A DNA stretch of 64,000 nt from Meghimatium bilineatum (lineage: Eukaryota > Mollusca > Gastropoda > Stylommatophora > Philomycidae), in NCBI GenBank assembly GCA_034231615.1, contig CM067309.1, forward strand, positions 36,235,750 through 36,299,749, in the 5' to 3' direction. The notes below the pieces were generated by a model that saw nothing but the letters and a program-made list of their open reading frames with translations, had not been told where the DNA came from and made no database searches. The translations under genes were made by a program, and so were the position numbers. Each line of letters starts with the position of its first letter. The stretch's first letter is position 1. Shown one piece after another: positions 23,801-35,800 of this stretch.

Positions 23801-26800
23801 CCAATGAGTTTTCATTCTGCACTAGATGATCCATTATTGCATTTATGATCTCACCTTTGTCCGTATTCAGAGTACACACCAAGGAGCTCTTGTAGTCAGT
23901 TTGTCAGCTCGCGCCTTTCCATGCACTCCAGCATGATCTGGACAGTAAATCCATAAAAGATCCAGAAGGGCAGAAGTATCTATGTATGCTGGCTATTCAA
24001 GGTGCAGCTGGACGTTTTGAAACATGACTCAGACTCGGACAGAATAACAGCCTTGTTCAGCGCAATTTCCAAGAGCTATCGTAAGACTTCTGTAACTGCC
24101 TCCACCTCCATTCTCATACTGGAGGTTGTCACATAAACTGCCAAATTTGACCATGATTCTTCCTCTTCCCCTATCAAGACTTGTCTCCATGCCCAAGCCA
24201 AGCCTTCAGATCGCATCCTCACTGCCTGCTGTGTCCTCTATGAGTTGCTTGATCTCAAGTTCTGCCTTTCCATAACCTCACTCTCTGTATTCCCTATCAA
24301 GGATGATTTGAGTAGTTTTATTGTACGGGTGATTTGAGATTTGATGCAAAGGTGAATTTAGATGTGTTGTAAGGTACAATTTAAGGAAATTTGATGAAAG
24401 GTTGAGTTGAAATTGATGCCTAGTTGATGGTGTCACAACTCCTATGAAGAAAAAAAATGAAGTTGAGATTAATGTATTTGATTATATAATTTGATGATAT
24501 AAAATCATATTCTCTTAATAAGGTCTGCTATTTTTTAATTTTTAGAACCATACATCAGACGTCGTCATAAGCGCAGCCTGCCAGACACAGACACAGAGGA
24601 GGTAATATGGGTATAATTGCTTAATCTCAACAATACAAACCCCAGTATTTCTCTTCATATTTTGAAACTGAAATTTGAGCAAGTAAAAAATAGCAGCTGA
24701 GATGGGGAGCACCATGACATTGATAATCTGTTGGATGGGCCTGACATTGAACATCTGTAGGATGGGTGATGAATAAAGTACTGCTTGGTATCTCATCTTG
24801 TACAGCGACCCGGCAGATTATTCTATCAACTGTTTTCCTTCCTGGTTTGATTTCCAGTTAAATCTATGGTTCCTCTATCTCATAGCCCCCTAGGATGTTC
24901 TAGAAATCAGTACACTATGGTACCAGATGACCAAATTCACTCATTGACATGGATCTCATAGCCCCCTAGGATGTTCTAGAAATCAGTACACTATGGTACC
25001 AGATGACCAAATGCAGCCATGGACATGATCTCATAGCCCCCTAGGATGTTCTATAAATCAGTACACTATGGTACCAGATGACCAAATGCAGCCATGGACA
25101 TGGATCTCATAGCCCCCTAGGATGTTCTAGAAATCAGTACACTATGGTACCAGATGACCAAATGCAGTCATGGACATGGATCTCATAGCCCCCTAGGATG
25201 TTCTAGAAATCAGTACACTATGGTACCAGACGACCAAATGCAGCCATGGACATGGATCTCATAGCCCCCATAGGATGTTCTAGAAATCAGTACACTATGG
25301 TACCAGATGACCAAAGACTGATATAGACACTGCAGCTCTATTTTAATTAGCTTGATGGTAGATTCGTCCTGTCTCACAAACTCATAGCCCTTTAGGTTGT
25401 CTAGAAATCAGTCCAATGCAGCATCAGATGGTTGAAGAAACTGCAGCTCTATATTTCATAGTGCTTAAACAATGTTCTCGGCTGAAGCTGGCGTCGTGAG
25501 TTGTCCAGAGCGACCATAAAGAAGACTGCGATTCAACTAAAGAAGAATTCTGTACTATCAACATTACTTTATGGATCGTAATTTTGAACAGAGCAGAACA
25601 TGTCTACACTTTCAGTCTTTCTTCACACAATGTCCTGTTTGGCAACCGGGACCTGGACTTTTTCAGGAAGCAAAGAATAGGAAAAATATCTTCTTTCCAG
25701 GCACGTCATAGGAGGCGACTAAGGAAAGTTTGGGGATAGCCTGACATCCTATCACCTGTGAAAAAAATTATTGCCACATCTTGTCTCAATTTCTTGTTTA
25801 TGTCTTGTATCAAATAATCCCCATGGATAACGAAGAGATTCAAGCCAGACTTTACACCTTTGTTCTTCTGTGGTAGACTCCTAGGAGATGGAGAATGCTA
25901 GATGTGCCAACACTGCGACTGGGTCAAAAAATCTGACAGAAGAATGATGAAATAGATGGCCCAGATGCATGTGCTGTGCCTCTAGCAGGAACTGGTAGTC
26001 CTAGTATATTATCGTACTGGAGTGTCTCCCTTTGGGAACTGAACATGCATCCATAAAATTCTCTGCATATCCATGCCTTGGAGACTTTATATGAGGTGTT
26101 GCCTCAGTAACGCAAATGAGAAGAACTTGTACTTTTGTCAGAAAGACTATGGGCTGTCAAGAGCTATCTCATCATCATCATTTTCCTCTTATGCCAAGCT
26201 TGGCACATAAGGGCAGATGCCATAGCTCTCCATGCTTGTCGATCCAAGCTTGGCACATAAGGGCAGATGCCATAGCTCTCCATGCTTGTCGATCCAAGCT
26301 TGGCACATAAGGGCAGATGTCATAGCTCTCCATGCTTGTCGATCCAAGCGTGGCACATAAGGGCAGATGTCATAGCTCTCCATGCTTGTCAAGCTTGGCA
26401 CATAAGGGCAGATGCCATAGCTCTCCATGCTTGTCAAGCTTGGCACATAAGGGCAGATGTCATATCTCTCCATGCTTGTCGATCAACAGCCAGTTGTTCC
26501 AGATCATTCATTTTCATACCAGCTGTTTGTGATTTCTTTTTTGATAGTTCTTTTCAGTGTTGTTTTTGGTCTTTCCCTTTTTCTCTTGCCACTTGGTGAC
26601 CATGTAAAAACTTGATGTGGTATTCTGTTTTCATTCATTCTGAGTTAGTGACCGATGTATGCGCAATGCCTTTTTCTAATAATGTCTGACGTATTCTTGT
26701 TTTTCTCTTCTCTTCGTGTCTTATTTGACTTAAAATATTTCCAGTTTGTGTTGGTGATTTTCCTGAAACATTTGTTCTATCTAGAAGGCATTTAGTTTGT

Positions 26801-29800
26801 TTTCTAAAGAAGTTGATTTCCAGCTTTCACACCTGTACGTCAAAACATAAATAACACATACATCAAAACAGAAGTAAAACATACATCAAAACAGAAATAA
26901 CATACGTCAAAACTGAAATAACATACATCAAAACAGAAATAACACATACATCAAAACAGAAATAACACATACGTCAAAACTGAAATAACACATACATCAA
27001 AACAGAAATAACACATACATCAAAACAGAAATAACACATACGTCAAAACATAAATAACACATACATCAAAACAGAAATAACACATACATCAAAACTGAAA
27101 TAACACATACATCAAAACAGAAATAACACATACGTCAAAACATAAATAACACATACATCAAAACAGAAATAACACATACATCAAAACTGAAATAAAACAT
27201 ACATCAAAACAGAAATAAAACATACATCAAAACAGAAATAAAACATACATCAAAACAGAAATAAAACATACATCAAAACAGAAATAAAACATACATCAAA
27301 ACAGAAATAAAACATACGTCAAAACTGAAATAACACATACATCAAAACTGAAATAACACATACGTTAAAACTGAAATAACACATACGTCAAAACTGAAAT
27401 AACACATACTTCAAAACTGAAATAACACATACATCAAAACAGAAATAAAACATACATCAAAACAGAAATAACACATACATCAAAAAAGAAGTAAAACATA
27501 CGTCAAAACAGAAATAAAACATACATCAAAACAGAAATAACACATACATCAATAAAGAAGTAAAACATACATCAAAACAGAAATAAAACATACGTCAAAA
27601 CTGAAATAACACATACATCAAAACAGAAATAAAACATACGTCAAAACTGAAATAACACATACATCAAAACTGAAATAACACATACATCAAAACAGAAATA
27701 AAACATACGTCAAAACTGAAATAACACACACATCAAAACAGAAATAAAACATACGTCAAAACTGAAATAACACATACTTCAAAACAGAAATAAAACATAC
27801 GTCAAAACTGAAATAACACATACATCAAAACTGAAATAACACATACATCAAAACATAAATAACACATACATCAAAACTGAAATAACACATGCGTTGAGCA
27901 GTCTTATTGCTGAGTTGTTATAATCTCCAAATATTTGATAATGATTGAATGCATTTGATGACAGAGCAATTCTTGTCATAATTTCTGTACTTGAGTCTCC
28001 ATTTACTGTTATTCTGCTTCCTAAATAAGTGAAATGTTCTGCTTCTTCTTGTATATTGCTATTTATTAAGAGCTACCTGCTCACAGTTAAAGGGATTATT
28101 TCATCATTTTCACGCAATATGTCTCATAAAATCCTGTATGTTTTCTGGTCAAGGACCATCTGTTCTTATATTCTAACTATCTATCTATACGCTGTGTCCC
28201 TTGTTTGCCTTGCAGCATCAGGGGTGGAAGAGTTCTCTGGAGATGGCATTCTTGTGCGCTGTTTGTAAGCTTGTTCCTGTGGCTTCTTTGATTTCTGTGA
28301 TCCATCTTTTACATGGTCTGCCTCTGGCTTTATAACCGTTATATCTATGTGTCAGGGCCATTTGTGGCATGCTATCTGTGGGTTGTCTGGAAGCGTGTGA
28401 AAACCACTTGATCTGTTGTCTTTTGATGTGTTCCAATACTGGTATTGTTTTGGTTATCTGTCTGATGTTATCGTTTCTAATTCTATCTCTTAATGACACT
28501 CCGAGTATTCTTCATAGACATGTCATTTCTATTGTCACTATTTTTCTTTTGTCTTGAGCTGTCATTGTCCAGGTTTGGCACTGGTAACATAGTGATGGAA
28601 TAATAATAGTCTTGTATAATGCAACTTTAGTGTCTATGTTTACATTTTTGTTCTTAAAAATACATGTTATCTGTAGGTTCTGGTCAAGATGGCGGGCACG
28701 TTGGATATCATTACGCCAGCCTCTAGACCGGGTAGTAGTTTTTGGTGTTTCAGTGTATTTCTGATGGAATATGTGATTTCTACATGTGAATGTGATAGAT
28801 TAGAACACTGTTTAACCATTTAGAAACTCTGAAACAACGCTGTGACAGATCTAGCAAATCGACAGCGACGAAACACACTGCTCATAGAAAAAAATGTTCT
28901 TATATTGAAAGTTGAAAATACAAATAAATCAGTACCAAAATTATCCGAATTCTGTTTATCTCAGTGGAAATTACTTTTTTGTCTTCCTGTAGGATTGTGA
29001 GGACAATGAGACATCACCAGCCAAACTACGCAAACTTTCAGAACCCCAACTGACACTTAGCTTGGAGGAGTTTAACCTGGGTATGTTATGAAGTCTGGCT
29101 ATATTTGAGATGTGGTGACAGTACAAAAATTACTTTTCGATATATTACCTGGCCTATTCCACTGATGACCATGCATGCTGTAAGAGGCGGCTAAGTAGAT
29201 TTTAGGGGGGGGGGGAGATGGCTTTCCTACCTCCTAAAGGGTCTAAGTGACTCAGAAGCCATGCTGAAGTCGGATGTGTCAGGCTGAATGGCAAGATATT
29301 GCAGTCAAGCTGTAAGCCATGATACAACACATTTCATTTTCTGAACTACATCATGCTAATCTTAAGGCGTTTGTAAATGAAAGAAGATGCATATATATAT
29401 ATATACAGTTTCTCCATATCTATTTACTTTGAATTATCCTTTCCACCGAAGACGGATATGTCGGGCCATTGATGCACATAAAACGGCGACATACGCATTT
29501 CCATTATCTGGACTACTTCCTTCTGGAATTCTAATAGGACCAAGGTCCTGCTACAAGAGATATCCAGTGGGAGTTTGAGAATGAACGGTGAAGAAGAAGA
29601 AGAAGAATTACCCACAACTGGTACATGTTATGTATTTACATGAAATTTGATAGGATACAGAGTAGTTGCCAAAACATGCACAAATCTCAAAGTAAAATTT
29701 AACTGGGTATTGCCACAGCACATGCAGACTCCTGATTTAGAAGAGTTCAATGAACGGTAAAGAAAATAACTGAAATTGCAAGTCAGCAGAAAGTGTTGAC

Positions 29801-32800
29801 ATTAGTGAAGTAGTGTAAACTTCTGTACATTATACATGTAACCTCATTCACTTTTGAAGATTATTTAGCGTGGGATCATCATCAAGTGCCGTCTCTGCAA
29901 CGAAGGTTGGCTGCAACGTATCTCCAGCATCCCCTGTCTCTTGTCTTGGTGGTGCACTCTGCTAGACTGTAACCTGTCCATCGTGTAATGTTACTCTCCC
30001 ACTTGTATCTCTGCCTACCTCTTGCTCGCTTCCCTTTGACTTTACCCTCAAGTAAGGTCTTCAATAGGGTGCCATGTCTTTTAATGTGTCCAAAGTATTT
30101 TATTTGCCTGATCTTTATTTCTCTTAGTAGTTCTTTCTTCATATTAAGTGTCTTTAGCACCTCTTTATTTGTTTTCTTCTCTTTCCATGATGTTCTCCCT
30201 ATTCTTCTATATACCCACATCTCAAAGGCATCAATTTTGTCTTCTAATTGTTTATTTAGTGTCCATGTTTCTGAGCCATACATTAATATGGAACAGATGT
30301 AGCATTTTATAATTCTCATTTTTAACTTGTTTGTAATTTGTTTAGATATTAATAATTTCCTCATGTCATTGAAGGTACTTTTAGCCATTCCTATTTTCCT
30401 TTTAACTTTTGTTTCACATCTGCCATCATTTGTGACTATGTGTCCAAGATATTGATACTGTTTTACTTGTTGTAGTTTCTCTCCCTGTATGTTTATGTTT
30501 ACCTCCTGTTCTTCTGTGTCTTTGCTGATTATCATGGTTTTTGTTTTTTGAATGTTTATATCCAGTCCATATTCATTACTTGATTTATTGACTTGATCTA
30601 TTAGTCTTTGTAGTTCACCACTAATATACTTCTAGCAGAAAGTGAACATGAACTACAAAGACTAATAGATCAAGTCGATAAATCAAATAATGAATATGGA
30701 CTGGATAAATATCCAAAAAACAAAAACCATGATAATCAGCAAAGACACAGAGGAACAAGAGCTATAAAAACATAAAAATATATGAGAGATACTACAACAA
30801 GTAGAACATTAATACATGATGTCTCGGACACATAATTACAAATGTTGGCAGATTTGAAACAGAAGATAAAAGGAGAATAGGAATATGGCTAAAAGTACTT
30901 TCAATGACATGAGGAAAGTATTAACATCTGAACATATTACAAACAAACTAAAAATGAGAATAAAAAAGTGCTACATCTATCCTATATTAATGTATTAATG
31001 ACACCCTATTGAAGACCTTACTTGAGGGTAAAGTCAAAGGGAAGCGAGCAAGAGGTAGGCAGAGATAGAAGTGGAAGCGTAACATCATAAGATGGACAGG
31101 TTACAGTTTAGCAGAGTGCACCACTAAAACAGGAGACAGGCAGCCAACCTTTGTTGCAAAGACGTCACTTGATGATAATGATGAATATACTTCATTAACC
31201 TTGTTAGAGTTCACTGAAAAACCTTGACTTACACTAAATTTTGTTTAACATTGTTAGATTTCACTGAAAAAGCTTGATTTACACAGAGTTTGAAACCCTG
31301 AACAAGTTTGTGCTCGGTATAGCTACCCCCGACCATGCAGCTGGAAGTTTTATTGTTATTTATGCCAGAAAGTAAAGAAATCCCAAAGCAGAAGACTACA
31401 GTCAATCAAGTGTCATGCCAACTGGCGTAGGCGATCATGTTTCTCCACGACTCTCTGTCTCTTGTGTTGTCAATAAGCTCAGTTGATGAGCTTCTACCGT
31501 GCCACAATACAAGCCCATCTAGTAACTTTTCTCTTTGTCCTTCCCTATCTTGTCTCCCTTTGATCTTTCCAGTGGTTATTAAGTGTTCAAGCTGTGTTCT
31601 TCTCAGCACATGCCCTAGAAACCTAGACTATGATCGATTGATGGACTGAGGATTGATTGATGGACTGAGGATTGATTGATGGATTGAGGATTGATTGATG
31701 GATTGAGGATTGTAGAAGACTACAGTTAAGTTATACTTTCCTTGCTGGCTCAGTACCAGAGTTGATAGACAAATCATATCGCTAACCCAATTCATTAAAT
31801 AGTTGAAGAAACTTGGAACGGGGTAATGAAATTTTGCTAATCACTGGTAACACACACAAATCGATGTTTCGACCAAAAGGTTTTTATCAAGAACACATTT
31901 GCAACATAATACCACAAATAAAAATGACACTATTGACGTTAACATGCGAGGCTAAATATAGATAAAACTCAGATTAGTAAACACTAGAAGGTCAGAGGGG
32001 AAACAGAAAGTTAACAAAACACACTGAAATATCAATAAAACAAATCAAACAGAAAAATTATGCAACAACAGGATATCTACCTGTAGAACTGACAGGTATT
32101 GATCCCAAAGAGCTCTATCATGCCAAATTTATAGATATAACAGTTTTCAAGTGTGTGCTAGTCCGGTCATCATTCATTGAATTAGCTTGTAGTTTTAATG
32201 TGGTCATCCACATAGCAATAGCAATACAATGTGATATATTAGTGGTGCCTACAAATTCAACAATAGTTGTATAGCGATGTAGTGTATAAATTCAACAATA
32301 GTTGTATAGCGATGTAGTGTATAAATTCAACAATAGTTGTATAGCAATGGTCTGTGTACAAATTCAACAATAGTTGTATAGTGATGTTCTGTGCAGAATG
32401 CGCTTAATGCTTAGTTTATTGAGGTTCTTTGTTTTAATCTGCTTTTCTTCTTGCAACAGAGGCCATCACTGATAAAGTGGATGGAGACACCATGCCAACA
32501 TTCGACTTGAAAGATCCATTACATAAAGCATTAGGTAAGGTGACATTGAGGGAAAATAGATTTTGTTCTTTTTATCTTTTTCAAAAATGGGATTTTAATC
32601 ATTGTTAGCAATTAGATGCTTATCCCTTTATTGCAGAGTGGTGTACATGAGTCCTCTTATGTGAATCCCAGTGTTAGCCACTAATCTACACGCTAATGCA
32701 TCACCTTCAGAATTCCTGTATGCAAAGCATCCATGCCATGCTGACTAGGTTCCAACTCCGCTGGAATGGCCACATTGTCCAGACAAGCTTGTCTGGTCAT

Positions 32801-35800
32801 AAGCCAGACAAGCAACTTCCAAAGAGATTATTCTATGGAGAGCTGTGCGAAGGTGAACGTTCAAACGGAGGGCAGAAAAAGCGCTTCAAGGATCACCTAA
32901 AAAAACTCTCTCAAGCACTGCAGCATCGATCCTAGCACCTGGGAGACTACAGCACTTGACCGCTCAGCCTGGCACATTTAGATCACTGCTGGTATCACGA
33001 AATATAAAAAGGAAAGAACACTGTGGGCAATACACAAGCACAAGAAGCGGAAGGACAGAACCGAAGGTTCTCCTACCCCTAACCTTCAGCACTCCTGCAT
33101 GCACCACAATAGAACTTTCCGTGCACGAATCGGACTCAACTGACATCTGCGGGCTCACAAGCCAAATTAGACAGTTGCCAGTTTATTGTTATTATTTTTT
33201 TTTTCATCGCATTAATTTTTTTTTCATGCCATGCTCATCTTCACTCGCGAAGGAGGAACATCATCAAAGCATCACCATCCTGTGCTTCCCGGAAACAGGT
33301 AAATGTGATCAAACTCAGGGTTTTAAAAACTGCAGATGAACTGAGGATTGATTGATTGCTAGCCTATCTTATTCAGGACGTAGCCATCAACCCAGTATTT
33401 TTATTTACTGTAGTGATTTTCTAGGTAATATAAATACGTTCATTAGTTTTCCATTGCTTTCTAAATGCACAATTGCCTGTGTCGGGGATCGAATTCGGTA
33501 CCTTGGCTGTCACTGCTGCGCACTGTACCGCTCCGCCACAGAGCAGGAGAATTAGTTGCAATGAGGTAAACACTATCTCTACCTCTCATTAGCACATCCC
33601 ATAAAGCTTACAACAGTGCACTAAAACACAAGACTAGGAATACCAGTGTTGGTAAAACTCTCAGAGTTCTCACACTTCTTCTTTCGTTCACTTGAAACAT
33701 GTCTATATCTGTAATTCTGTCTCCTGAATAAAACTCAGTCTTTTGTAGTTCATACAGTGGCCCATAGAGCTTTGATTCCAGTGTTGTTTCCTCTGGCCAA
33801 TATGTCTGCCTCCGCGTTTCATGCTCAGAACACTCTTGAAGTATTTGTTTGGCACTCTGTGCTGCCTGTCCACATGGCGTGTTGCCAATCTTGAACTTTG
33901 TATACATGTGACTGCGGAGTCGGTTGTGTCCTGTTCTGAGGCGTAGAATTATAACTTGTTCTGATCTGTTCATAATGTCTTGACACTGAATCCAGTGTTA
34001 TATCACCATCTTACGACATAATGAAGTTTCTATGAAATTCAACTGAGAATGCCTCAGAAGAAGACAACACATGAGATGTGTATTTATCCTGTTGTACAGA
34101 AGACAACACATGAGATGTGTATTTATCCTGTTGTATAGAAGACAACACATGAGATGTGTATTTATCCTGTTGTATAAGCTCTTGCGGGGGATAGAGAATG
34201 GCATTGAAAAATTCAAGTATACATACTGTCTATGGCTGAAGTGTTTATGTTTGAAGACATACTCCAGAATTTAGTTGCCTTTTGTGGCTTAGAATCCACT
34301 ACAAAACTATTTGTTTGTTGATATGTCACCTGCAGTACAGGGGGTGCAAGTTTGTTTATTATAACGTTTTACTATAATGTAAGTACTCTGATGTTTTACT
34401 ATAATGTAAGTACTCTGATGTTTTACTATAATGTAAGTACTCTGATGTTTTACTATAATGTAAGTACTCTGATGTTTTACTATAATGTAAGTACTCTGAT
34501 GTTTTACTTTAATGTAAGTACTCTGATGTTTTACTATAATGTAAGTACTCTGATGTTTTACTATAATGTAAATACTCTGATGTTTTACTATAATGTAAGT
34601 ACTCTGATGCTGGCACTTTCAGTTGGAATGGACCGAGCACTAAATGCCAGAGTACATTAACAATTCTATTCTTTAGTTGGTCTCATGCTCTGTACAAGTC
34701 TGTGGGCTAAAGAGCATGAGCCGCAGGGTCAGCAGCCAACAAACAACAAATCTATGTGGCCTATTACTCCTGAAATTATGCATATGCCGTGTATCTGTAG
34801 TAATCGATCAAGCCCTCGGACCACCGAGGGTTTTTACACTTTCTCAGGTGCGTAGAAAATGGATAAGAATTTTAGATTGGATTCTATCCTTGGATTCTAT
34901 CCTTGGATATGTTAGTTAGTTTGTTCCTTTCGTGCCACAAGCAACACATAGGGCAGAGGTTTTGGTTCTCCATATGATGCGGTCCGCTGCCTGTTTCTGG
35001 AGGGTCTTACAGTTATTAATTCCCCTTCTTTAAGAATGGTGTTTTTAAGGGTTGTTTTAGGTCTTCCTCTTTTTCTTTTACCCTCAGGTGACCACATAAG
35101 GGCTTGTTGGTTTATTCTGTTTACATCTAGTCGTAAAACGTGACCAAGGTATTTCCATCTTTGATATGTGCTCAGCCTCATTTCATGTCATCCCATCTGT
35201 TCAGTCCTTCAGTCTTTTTTCTCCATGTGTTCCCAGGTTTTCCCCAAGGTTCTACGTCATTGATCTTCTACCAATATCTTTTACTGGTTTTCTGAAAATT
35301 AACCCAATCTATCTCACGTGTTCTCTATTTTTTATCTTTGTGTTAACCAGATCTTTTCATATCTAATTTTGTCCTGCTACATTCTTAAACAGCTGAAGAT
35401 GTGTTGGGCCATTGGCACAAATAAAACTGTGACCCAACGTGTTTCCTTTCTCTGGACTACATCCTGCTGGAAATGCAGTAGTGCCATGATCCTACTACAA
35501 AAAAGATCCGGTGGGAATTTGAGAATGAACGCTGCAGAATATTAACAAATGTCTGTAGTTTATGCTATAGTTTAGTTTTCCATTTTTCTGAACCATACAG
35601 CAGTAATTTGTTTATAAAGTATATTTGATTCAATACTGTGAATTTATGTTAGATAATGTTACATCATCCTATGTGATTCAATACTGTGAATTTATGTTAG
35701 ATAATGTTACATCATCCAACAGCTAATCTGTTCTTAATGATGAATGCTATCTTGATGACTCCAACACTGTCACCTCGTACGTGGCTCATCGTGTCCTTCA

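Follow-up and report, generated by a model that had tools for sequence, protein, structure and literature searches.

Minisatellites born from transposable elements (TEs), and hotspots inside such elements, are already known, as PMC3389668, PMC6947457 and PMC3305785 attest. PMC3389668 (Ahmed and Liang 2012) describes human minisatellites that arose from TE segments, with hotspot regions in TEs (two of AluS and two of LTR12, the latter possibly inherited) and flanking direct repeats in a minority of cases. PMC6947457 lists minisatellites from Alu, B1 and MaLR, including two mouse loci in transposon-like long terminal repeats (LTRs); it and PMC3389668 also describe the model of Haber and Louis (1998), in which short repeats bounding a motif allow a first duplication by slippage or unequal crossing-over. 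PMC3305785 reports five interleaved, polymorphic minisatellite families near the 3' end of the coding region of the soybean LTR retrotransposon Gmr9/GmOgre. Here we describe two minisatellites within one fragment of a long interspersed element (LINE) in a 64,000-nucleotide stretch of the Meghimatium bilineatum genome (C12:36235750-36299749, contig CM067309.1, of a 1.61-Gb genome in 32 contigs; hereafter the window), one of which lies at a site that is a family-wide recurrent hotspot for tandem duplication.

The locus resembles the human case in that minisatellites came from segments of TE copies, with hotspots and multilocus repeats of varying unit number, and differs from it in that the source is the 3' end of a LINE, about one-fifth of the sampled copies are expanded, and the junctions are varied. 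Like the Alu, B1 and MaLR examples, these minisatellites come from one TE family, but those sources are short interspersed or LTR elements and ours is the coding end of a LINE. The position near the 3' end of a retrotransposon coding region is shared with Gmr9/GmOgre, whereas most sampled copies here have a single unit. We recognized no comparable LINE case in the literature searched, a limited search from which we make no claim of absence.

Both arrays consist of segments of the LINE that carries them

The array-bearing element is an old LINE fragment inserted into an unrelated dispersed repeat (R1, described below). It is laid out as follows.

26170-28067, minus strand: old 5'-truncated LINE fragment with the 3' tail GATGATGATG (from the empty site in R1 copies and from family copies)
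26194-26484, minus strand: 50-bp minisatellite with six 45-50-bp units that derive from the final codons of the LINE open reading frame (from Tandem Repeats Finder (TRF) and a unit split; single or multiplied in other copies)
26485-26835, minus strand: unexpanded LINE segment between the arrays, used as probe for other copies (2088 first-look candidates, of which 40 were scored, the window among them, at 85-100%)
26836-27890, minus strand: 23-bp minisatellite with 46 units that derive from the CVISVLMY-coding segment of the LINE (from TRF and a unit list; second unit in 0 of 29 other copies)
27891-28067, minus strand: LINE segment upstream of the 23-bp array, with the 5' truncation at 28067 (from translation; present in many family copies)

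Both arrays score far above chance in TRF (23-bp array: 46.0 copies, 91% matches, score 1655; 50-bp array: 6.0 copies, 93%, score 477), with copy numbers taken from the assembled sequence. The 46 units of the 23-bp array are mostly 23 bp long and fall into 17 sequence types, with a weak higher-order signal at lag 2 only. A preliminary description of this DNA, made from the sequence alone, had counted about 45 of these units and placed them exactly at CVISVLMY, with LINE sequence continuing on both sides. We found the same: on the minus strand, ...NNSAIRLLNACVISVLMY leads into the array and ...YRCESWKST leads out of it, and the flanks are LINE sequence by translation and in other copies. The spacing between the arrays, given as about 350 bp toward the 3' end, was measured at 351 bp, and the range given for the whole, 26186-28045, stops slightly short at its end. 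The 50-bp array had likewise been rightly recognized as a repeated LINE segment, but its reading needed correction: all six units share an extra A (CACATAAGGG), because of which the segment reads DRQAWRAMTSALMCQAW. Most other LINE copies have the form CACATAGGG, and a like extra A occurs only in L055 among the 29 copies compared. In the frame without the extra A, the segment would on our own reading give DRQAWRAMTSALCAKLGIRGK and then a stop.

For a first sample of relatives, we searched the genome with the 351 bp between the arrays plus short edges, scored the best 40 candidates, the window included, and fetched 29 other copies with 85-89% identity (loci L047-L075). Where intact, the 23-bp segment is present once at the same point in each of them; none of the 29 has a second unit there, the segment being broken or cut off in some (e.g., L048 and L074). 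A more distant relative, L041, reads through the site with one unit (ASVIPSLIYVCESWKS). At the other site, a 50-bp-type unit occupies one and the same position in all 29 copies, complete or partial, single or many. Counting L067 and L068, which share one layout on one contig, as a single copy (n = 28), we found a single unit in 21 copies and arrays of two or more units in seven (L061, 12 units; L067, 3.1; L069, 9.1; L070, 16; L071, 13.1; L073, 2; L074, 2), with periods of 44-49 bp. The middle segment of these copies gave only two-copy TRF traces (L074 and L075).

Both units in the window thus came from the LINE, each equaling one LINE segment at the same point in other copies, as the preliminary description had proposed; the contrary outcome that it had named, a consensus LINE without the unit sequences at these points, did not emerge from the 29 copies. 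Both arrays are TE-derived minisatellites in that the unit is a TE segment, the TE runs on at both sides, and other copies hold a single unit. That description also had one element seeding two independent expansions. This copy does host both, but the 50-bp expansion is a common event at a hotspot of the family, and the 23-bp expansion was seen in the window copy alone. The window array is in itself ordinary.

The L067 and L068 pair (C5:695 kb and C5:566 kb), in which a LINE copy with a three-unit array appears twice in identical layout, suggests a segmental duplication or an assembly duplicate.

Arrays at the 50-bp site recur across the family

The hotspot segment lies 24 bp from the 3' end of the LINE. 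In a second sample, defined by an exact match to the intact right edge of the segment (135 matches, 100 of them listed, including the window's own), we read the first 40 listed, which lie on C1-C9. Two or more units were present in eight of the 40 (L119, L120, L121, L123, L127, L128, L135 and L140), some with a 35-bp period; the other 32 were not multiple, and several of them were truncated or altered inside the segment. Pooled, the two samples have arrays at this site in 15 of 68 copies (22%, 95% interval 13-34%), and neither is random, the first consisting of the best matches to the middle segment and the second requiring an exact right edge.

An exact head-to-tail junction had 451 matches genome-wide versus 0 for a reversed control, and the 100 of these that were listed fall into 30 loci by our own grouping. 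The LINE middle segment stood, at least in part, beside the array in 26 of the 27 loci among these 30 that had not been sampled before, the exception being L089. Array periods at the site are 35, 44, 46, 47 and 49-50 bp, and the junctions differ; periods that differ require breakpoints that differ. In a tree built from 47 copies (26 array, 21 single; excluded were L068, L084, L089 and copies with <180 bp of the segment), which was star-like and had no strongly supported branch, array and single copies were mixed, with 14 changes between array and single and 19 changes of junction type. This mixing argues against one source with a ready-made array; despite it, inheritance may have occurred within the 47-bp class. 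The site is therefore a hotspot in the sense that differing junctions occur at one place in copies that do not form a clade, on a tree whose branches are weakly supported. Array copies were no further from the majority sequence than single copies (5.9% versus 5.5%, P 0.63).

Over contigs C1-C9, array loci were scarce on the two largest (2 of 29, versus 16 of 38 edge loci; P 0.0017, post hoc), also after five edge loci were reassigned as array copies (2 of 34 array versus 16 of 33 non-array; P 0.00008, post hoc). The distance to the contig end in Mb differed between array and edge loci (medians 7.0 and 13.0, P 0.001), and the relative distance did not (P 0.18). The scarcity, which we take as a hint, is possibly linked to recombination rate.

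Two further observations concern this site. At C9:12982850-12984400 (part of it in L099), 49-bp units form a long array at the hotspot, whose exact junctions alone span about 1.5 kb. At C2:11118733 and C9:10030079, paired matches to the 3'-end pattern lie 38 and 44 bp apart, which suggests further duplications that took in sequence adjoining the tail and had other breakpoints.

Timing of the expansions

The six 50-bp units in the window all have the extra A, rare in other copies, and differ by 2.7% among themselves; the divergence of the LINE from the sampled majority is 6.6%. In the 23-bp array, CCG, which is present in 19 of the 29 other copies, occurs in none of the 46 units. Because the units have in common changes seldom or never seen in most copies, both arrays appear to have expanded after insertion, and the simplest reading is that both would have grown after this LINE copy had begun to decay. 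For the family as a whole, first duplications look early: over a 29-bp core, 11 of 14 multi-unit copies had no private change common to the units found (12 of 14 with a looser unit finder), and shared changes totaled 5 versus 12-13 expected under uniform duplication times (P 0.02-0.03). This signal disappears with a lower mutation yardstick (P 0.32), and the test is weak: several arrays had units that escaped the unit finder, L074 was not recovered by it, and three single copies were unscorable.

The insertion and its surroundings

The remaining features around the arrays are these.

25640-26169, no strand assigned: left part of R1, the dispersed repeat that was the LINE's insertion target (genomic copies mostly at 73-79%; R1 copies continue from 26169 into 28068)
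26159-26169, plus strand: left target-site duplication AAGAGCTATCT (from the sequence and from flank overlap in R1 copies)
28068-28107, no strand assigned: right part of R1, starting with the second target-site duplication AAGAGCTACCT (28068-28078; from R1 copies and the sequence)
28154-28677, minus strand: a second LINE fragment, younger and of a different kind, flanked by a duplication of its own, TTCTGGTCAAG (28143-28153 and 28678-28688; from other copies and the sequence)

The array-bearing fragment, about 0.6 kb long without both arrays, interrupts R1, and the target-site duplication around the whole of it is 11 bp with one mismatch. The R1 flanks adjoin or overlap, some with small indels, in 13 of the 14 R1 copies read, giving the empty site; in the exceptional copy, L039, 88 bp lie between them. 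With its target-site duplication, 5' truncation and simple-repeat 3' tail, the fragment has the marks of a LINE insertion. The minus-strand flanks of the arrays we take, by resemblance, to be the C-terminal region of a LINE. The preliminary description had called this a reverse-transcriptase region, a label that reflects a likeness to LINE C-terminal regions. Five stop-free peptides from LINE fragments (two of them from the younger LINE) had no Pfam match at E 1, so the LINE label for the array flanks rests on resemblance.

The younger LINE fragment, just upstream of the array-bearing one, is matched by 39 other scored copies (94-96% across roughly 28172-28684) and has no part in either array. 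Two further minus-strand LINE fragments lie at 30278-30502 and 34900-35152, the second of which is related to the array-bearing LINE but has a single unit and another tail, ACTAACTAAC. L039 also contains, at 1065-1486 (C10:10821564-10821985), a 47-bp array of nine units from an R1 segment, a TE-born minisatellite in another repeat family.

Tandem arrays of 10-100-bp period make up 20.0% of the window, compared with 7.9% of the 126,674 bp covered at 36 other loci, which were chosen for TE hits and are not random. Because the genome is minisatellite-rich, two arrays in one LINE are less surprising here.

Discussion

The history that we propose is that the LINE copied its own 3' end into R1 and then decayed, and that two of its segments would then have undergone tandem duplication where they stood and grown as DNA, through replication slippage or unequal exchange. 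Related short arms, CCAAGCTTGG and CCATGCTTG, which match at 8 of 9 bp and lie about 36 bp apart, bound the 50-bp segment and may be the reason for the hotspot; first duplications would have arisen there on many independent occasions, their breakpoints spread across some 10 bp at each arm. We regard such in-place expansion, repeated at a hotspot of the family, as the probable explanation. The 35-bp junction CTCCATGCTTGGCAC, identified by eye in L119, L120 and L128, is the product expected from slippage between the arms, which would account for the 35-bp class. The 44-50-bp junctions keep both arms and join TGTC(GATC) to (GC)CAAGC.

Several observations weigh against this explanation. Most junctions, those of 44-50 bp, have by eye only 0-2 bases in common where they break, versus 5-10 bp in the usual slippage model, so that only the 35-bp class fits the Haber and Louis model, as described in the two sources, well. 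Bounding direct repeats at the 44-50-bp junctions and at the 23-bp array are at most 5 bp by eye, and the flanking match of the 23-bp array is weak (ACGCA versus ACGTA, 4 of 5, one period apart). The first sample was uneven, with no array in the 14 copies of highest similarity to the window and arrays in 7 of the 14 others (P 0.006, post hoc), which could be a sign of subfamilies, and some copies could descend from a two-unit source, given the common, near-identical 47-bp junctions. As to timing, the mean difference among the 23-bp units is 7.9%, with which an older array would be compatible, and their CTG form was found in 3 of the 29 copies, so that change need not be private. Finally, four single-unit segments folded unremarkably as single-stranded DNA (z 1.0, 0.4, 1.3 and -0.1).

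These single-unit folds do not support a hairpin as the cause of duplication. Better folding, as expected of a repeated palindrome, was seen in two segments at array edges (window z -3.1, L071 z -1.4): CCAAGC-bearing units form a perfect palindrome (TGCCAAGCTTGGCA), and some copies have CCTAGC. A palindrome as the cause was likewise tested and found no support. A first hand count, with rows holding other letters left out, favored the A form (arrays 16:0, singles 29:13, P 0.012) but had scored arrays by their inner units. Judged by the LINE's own 3' end, T-type ends bore arrays no less frequently than A-type ends (3 of 13 versus 2 of 51 over the genomic portion that the listed junctions span, P 0.053), the latter figure counting exact-junction arrays only; with L119 and the end next to L128 added it becomes 4 of 51 (P 0.14). 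Junctions inside arrays are almost all A-type (451 versus 7), and exact 3' ends number 125 A-type and 26 T-type. The A-type predominance inside arrays is not taken as support for the palindrome.

The first duplication could instead have happened at insertion, if the reverse transcriptase slipped or jumped within its first 25-75 bases and copied the last segment twice, with DNA slippage later lengthening some two-unit seeds. The location of the hotspot 24 bp from the LINE 3' end would suit this account, as would the units without a shared private change in most multi-unit copies and the two units of L119, L121 and L135, which by eye differ about as expected since insertion. We nevertheless think it unlikely: the timing signal vanishes with the lower mutation yardstick and comes from a unit finder that lost units, changes common to all units found are present in the window array, L071 and L140, and early DNA slippage, with the arms still intact, predicts the same. 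Less probable still is that a few source LINEs already holding two or more units spread the arrays by retrotransposition. The 47-bp junctions (GCC, GAC) do recur in many loci, subfamilies might account for the lack of arrays in the 14 sampled copies most similar to the window, and DNA duplication does copy arrays (L067 and L068 on C5); yet there are at least five period classes, and array copies are scattered among single-unit ones on the tree, though no branch of it is strongly supported. That the arrays are unrelated minisatellites which landed in the LINE, or assembly artefacts, is scarcely credible. The genome is rich in minisatellites and the copy numbers are those of the assembly, but the unit is LINE sequence at its exact place, with the LINE running on both sides in other copies, which contradicts this idea for the origin of the units.

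One version of the insertion-time account would make the LINE 3' end a maker of minisatellite seeds, the enzyme slipping on the last 44-50 bases during target-primed reverse transcription and leaving two-unit seeds in about one-fifth of new insertions, to be lengthened later by DNA slippage and exchange. This is a tentative idea that we would not expect to hold; if it were true, minisatellite birth would be partly a by-product of retrotransposition.

What is distinctive here is the rate, about one-fifth of the sampled copies, together with the large number of natural replicates. It has long been debated how a minisatellite acquires its first duplication, since the single-copy ancestor has as a rule disappeared. 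One LINE family here offers the same segment with a known ancestor, as single units, doubles and long arrays, with differing junctions and datable flanks, so that rates, breakpoints and the timing of the first duplication are measurable within it.

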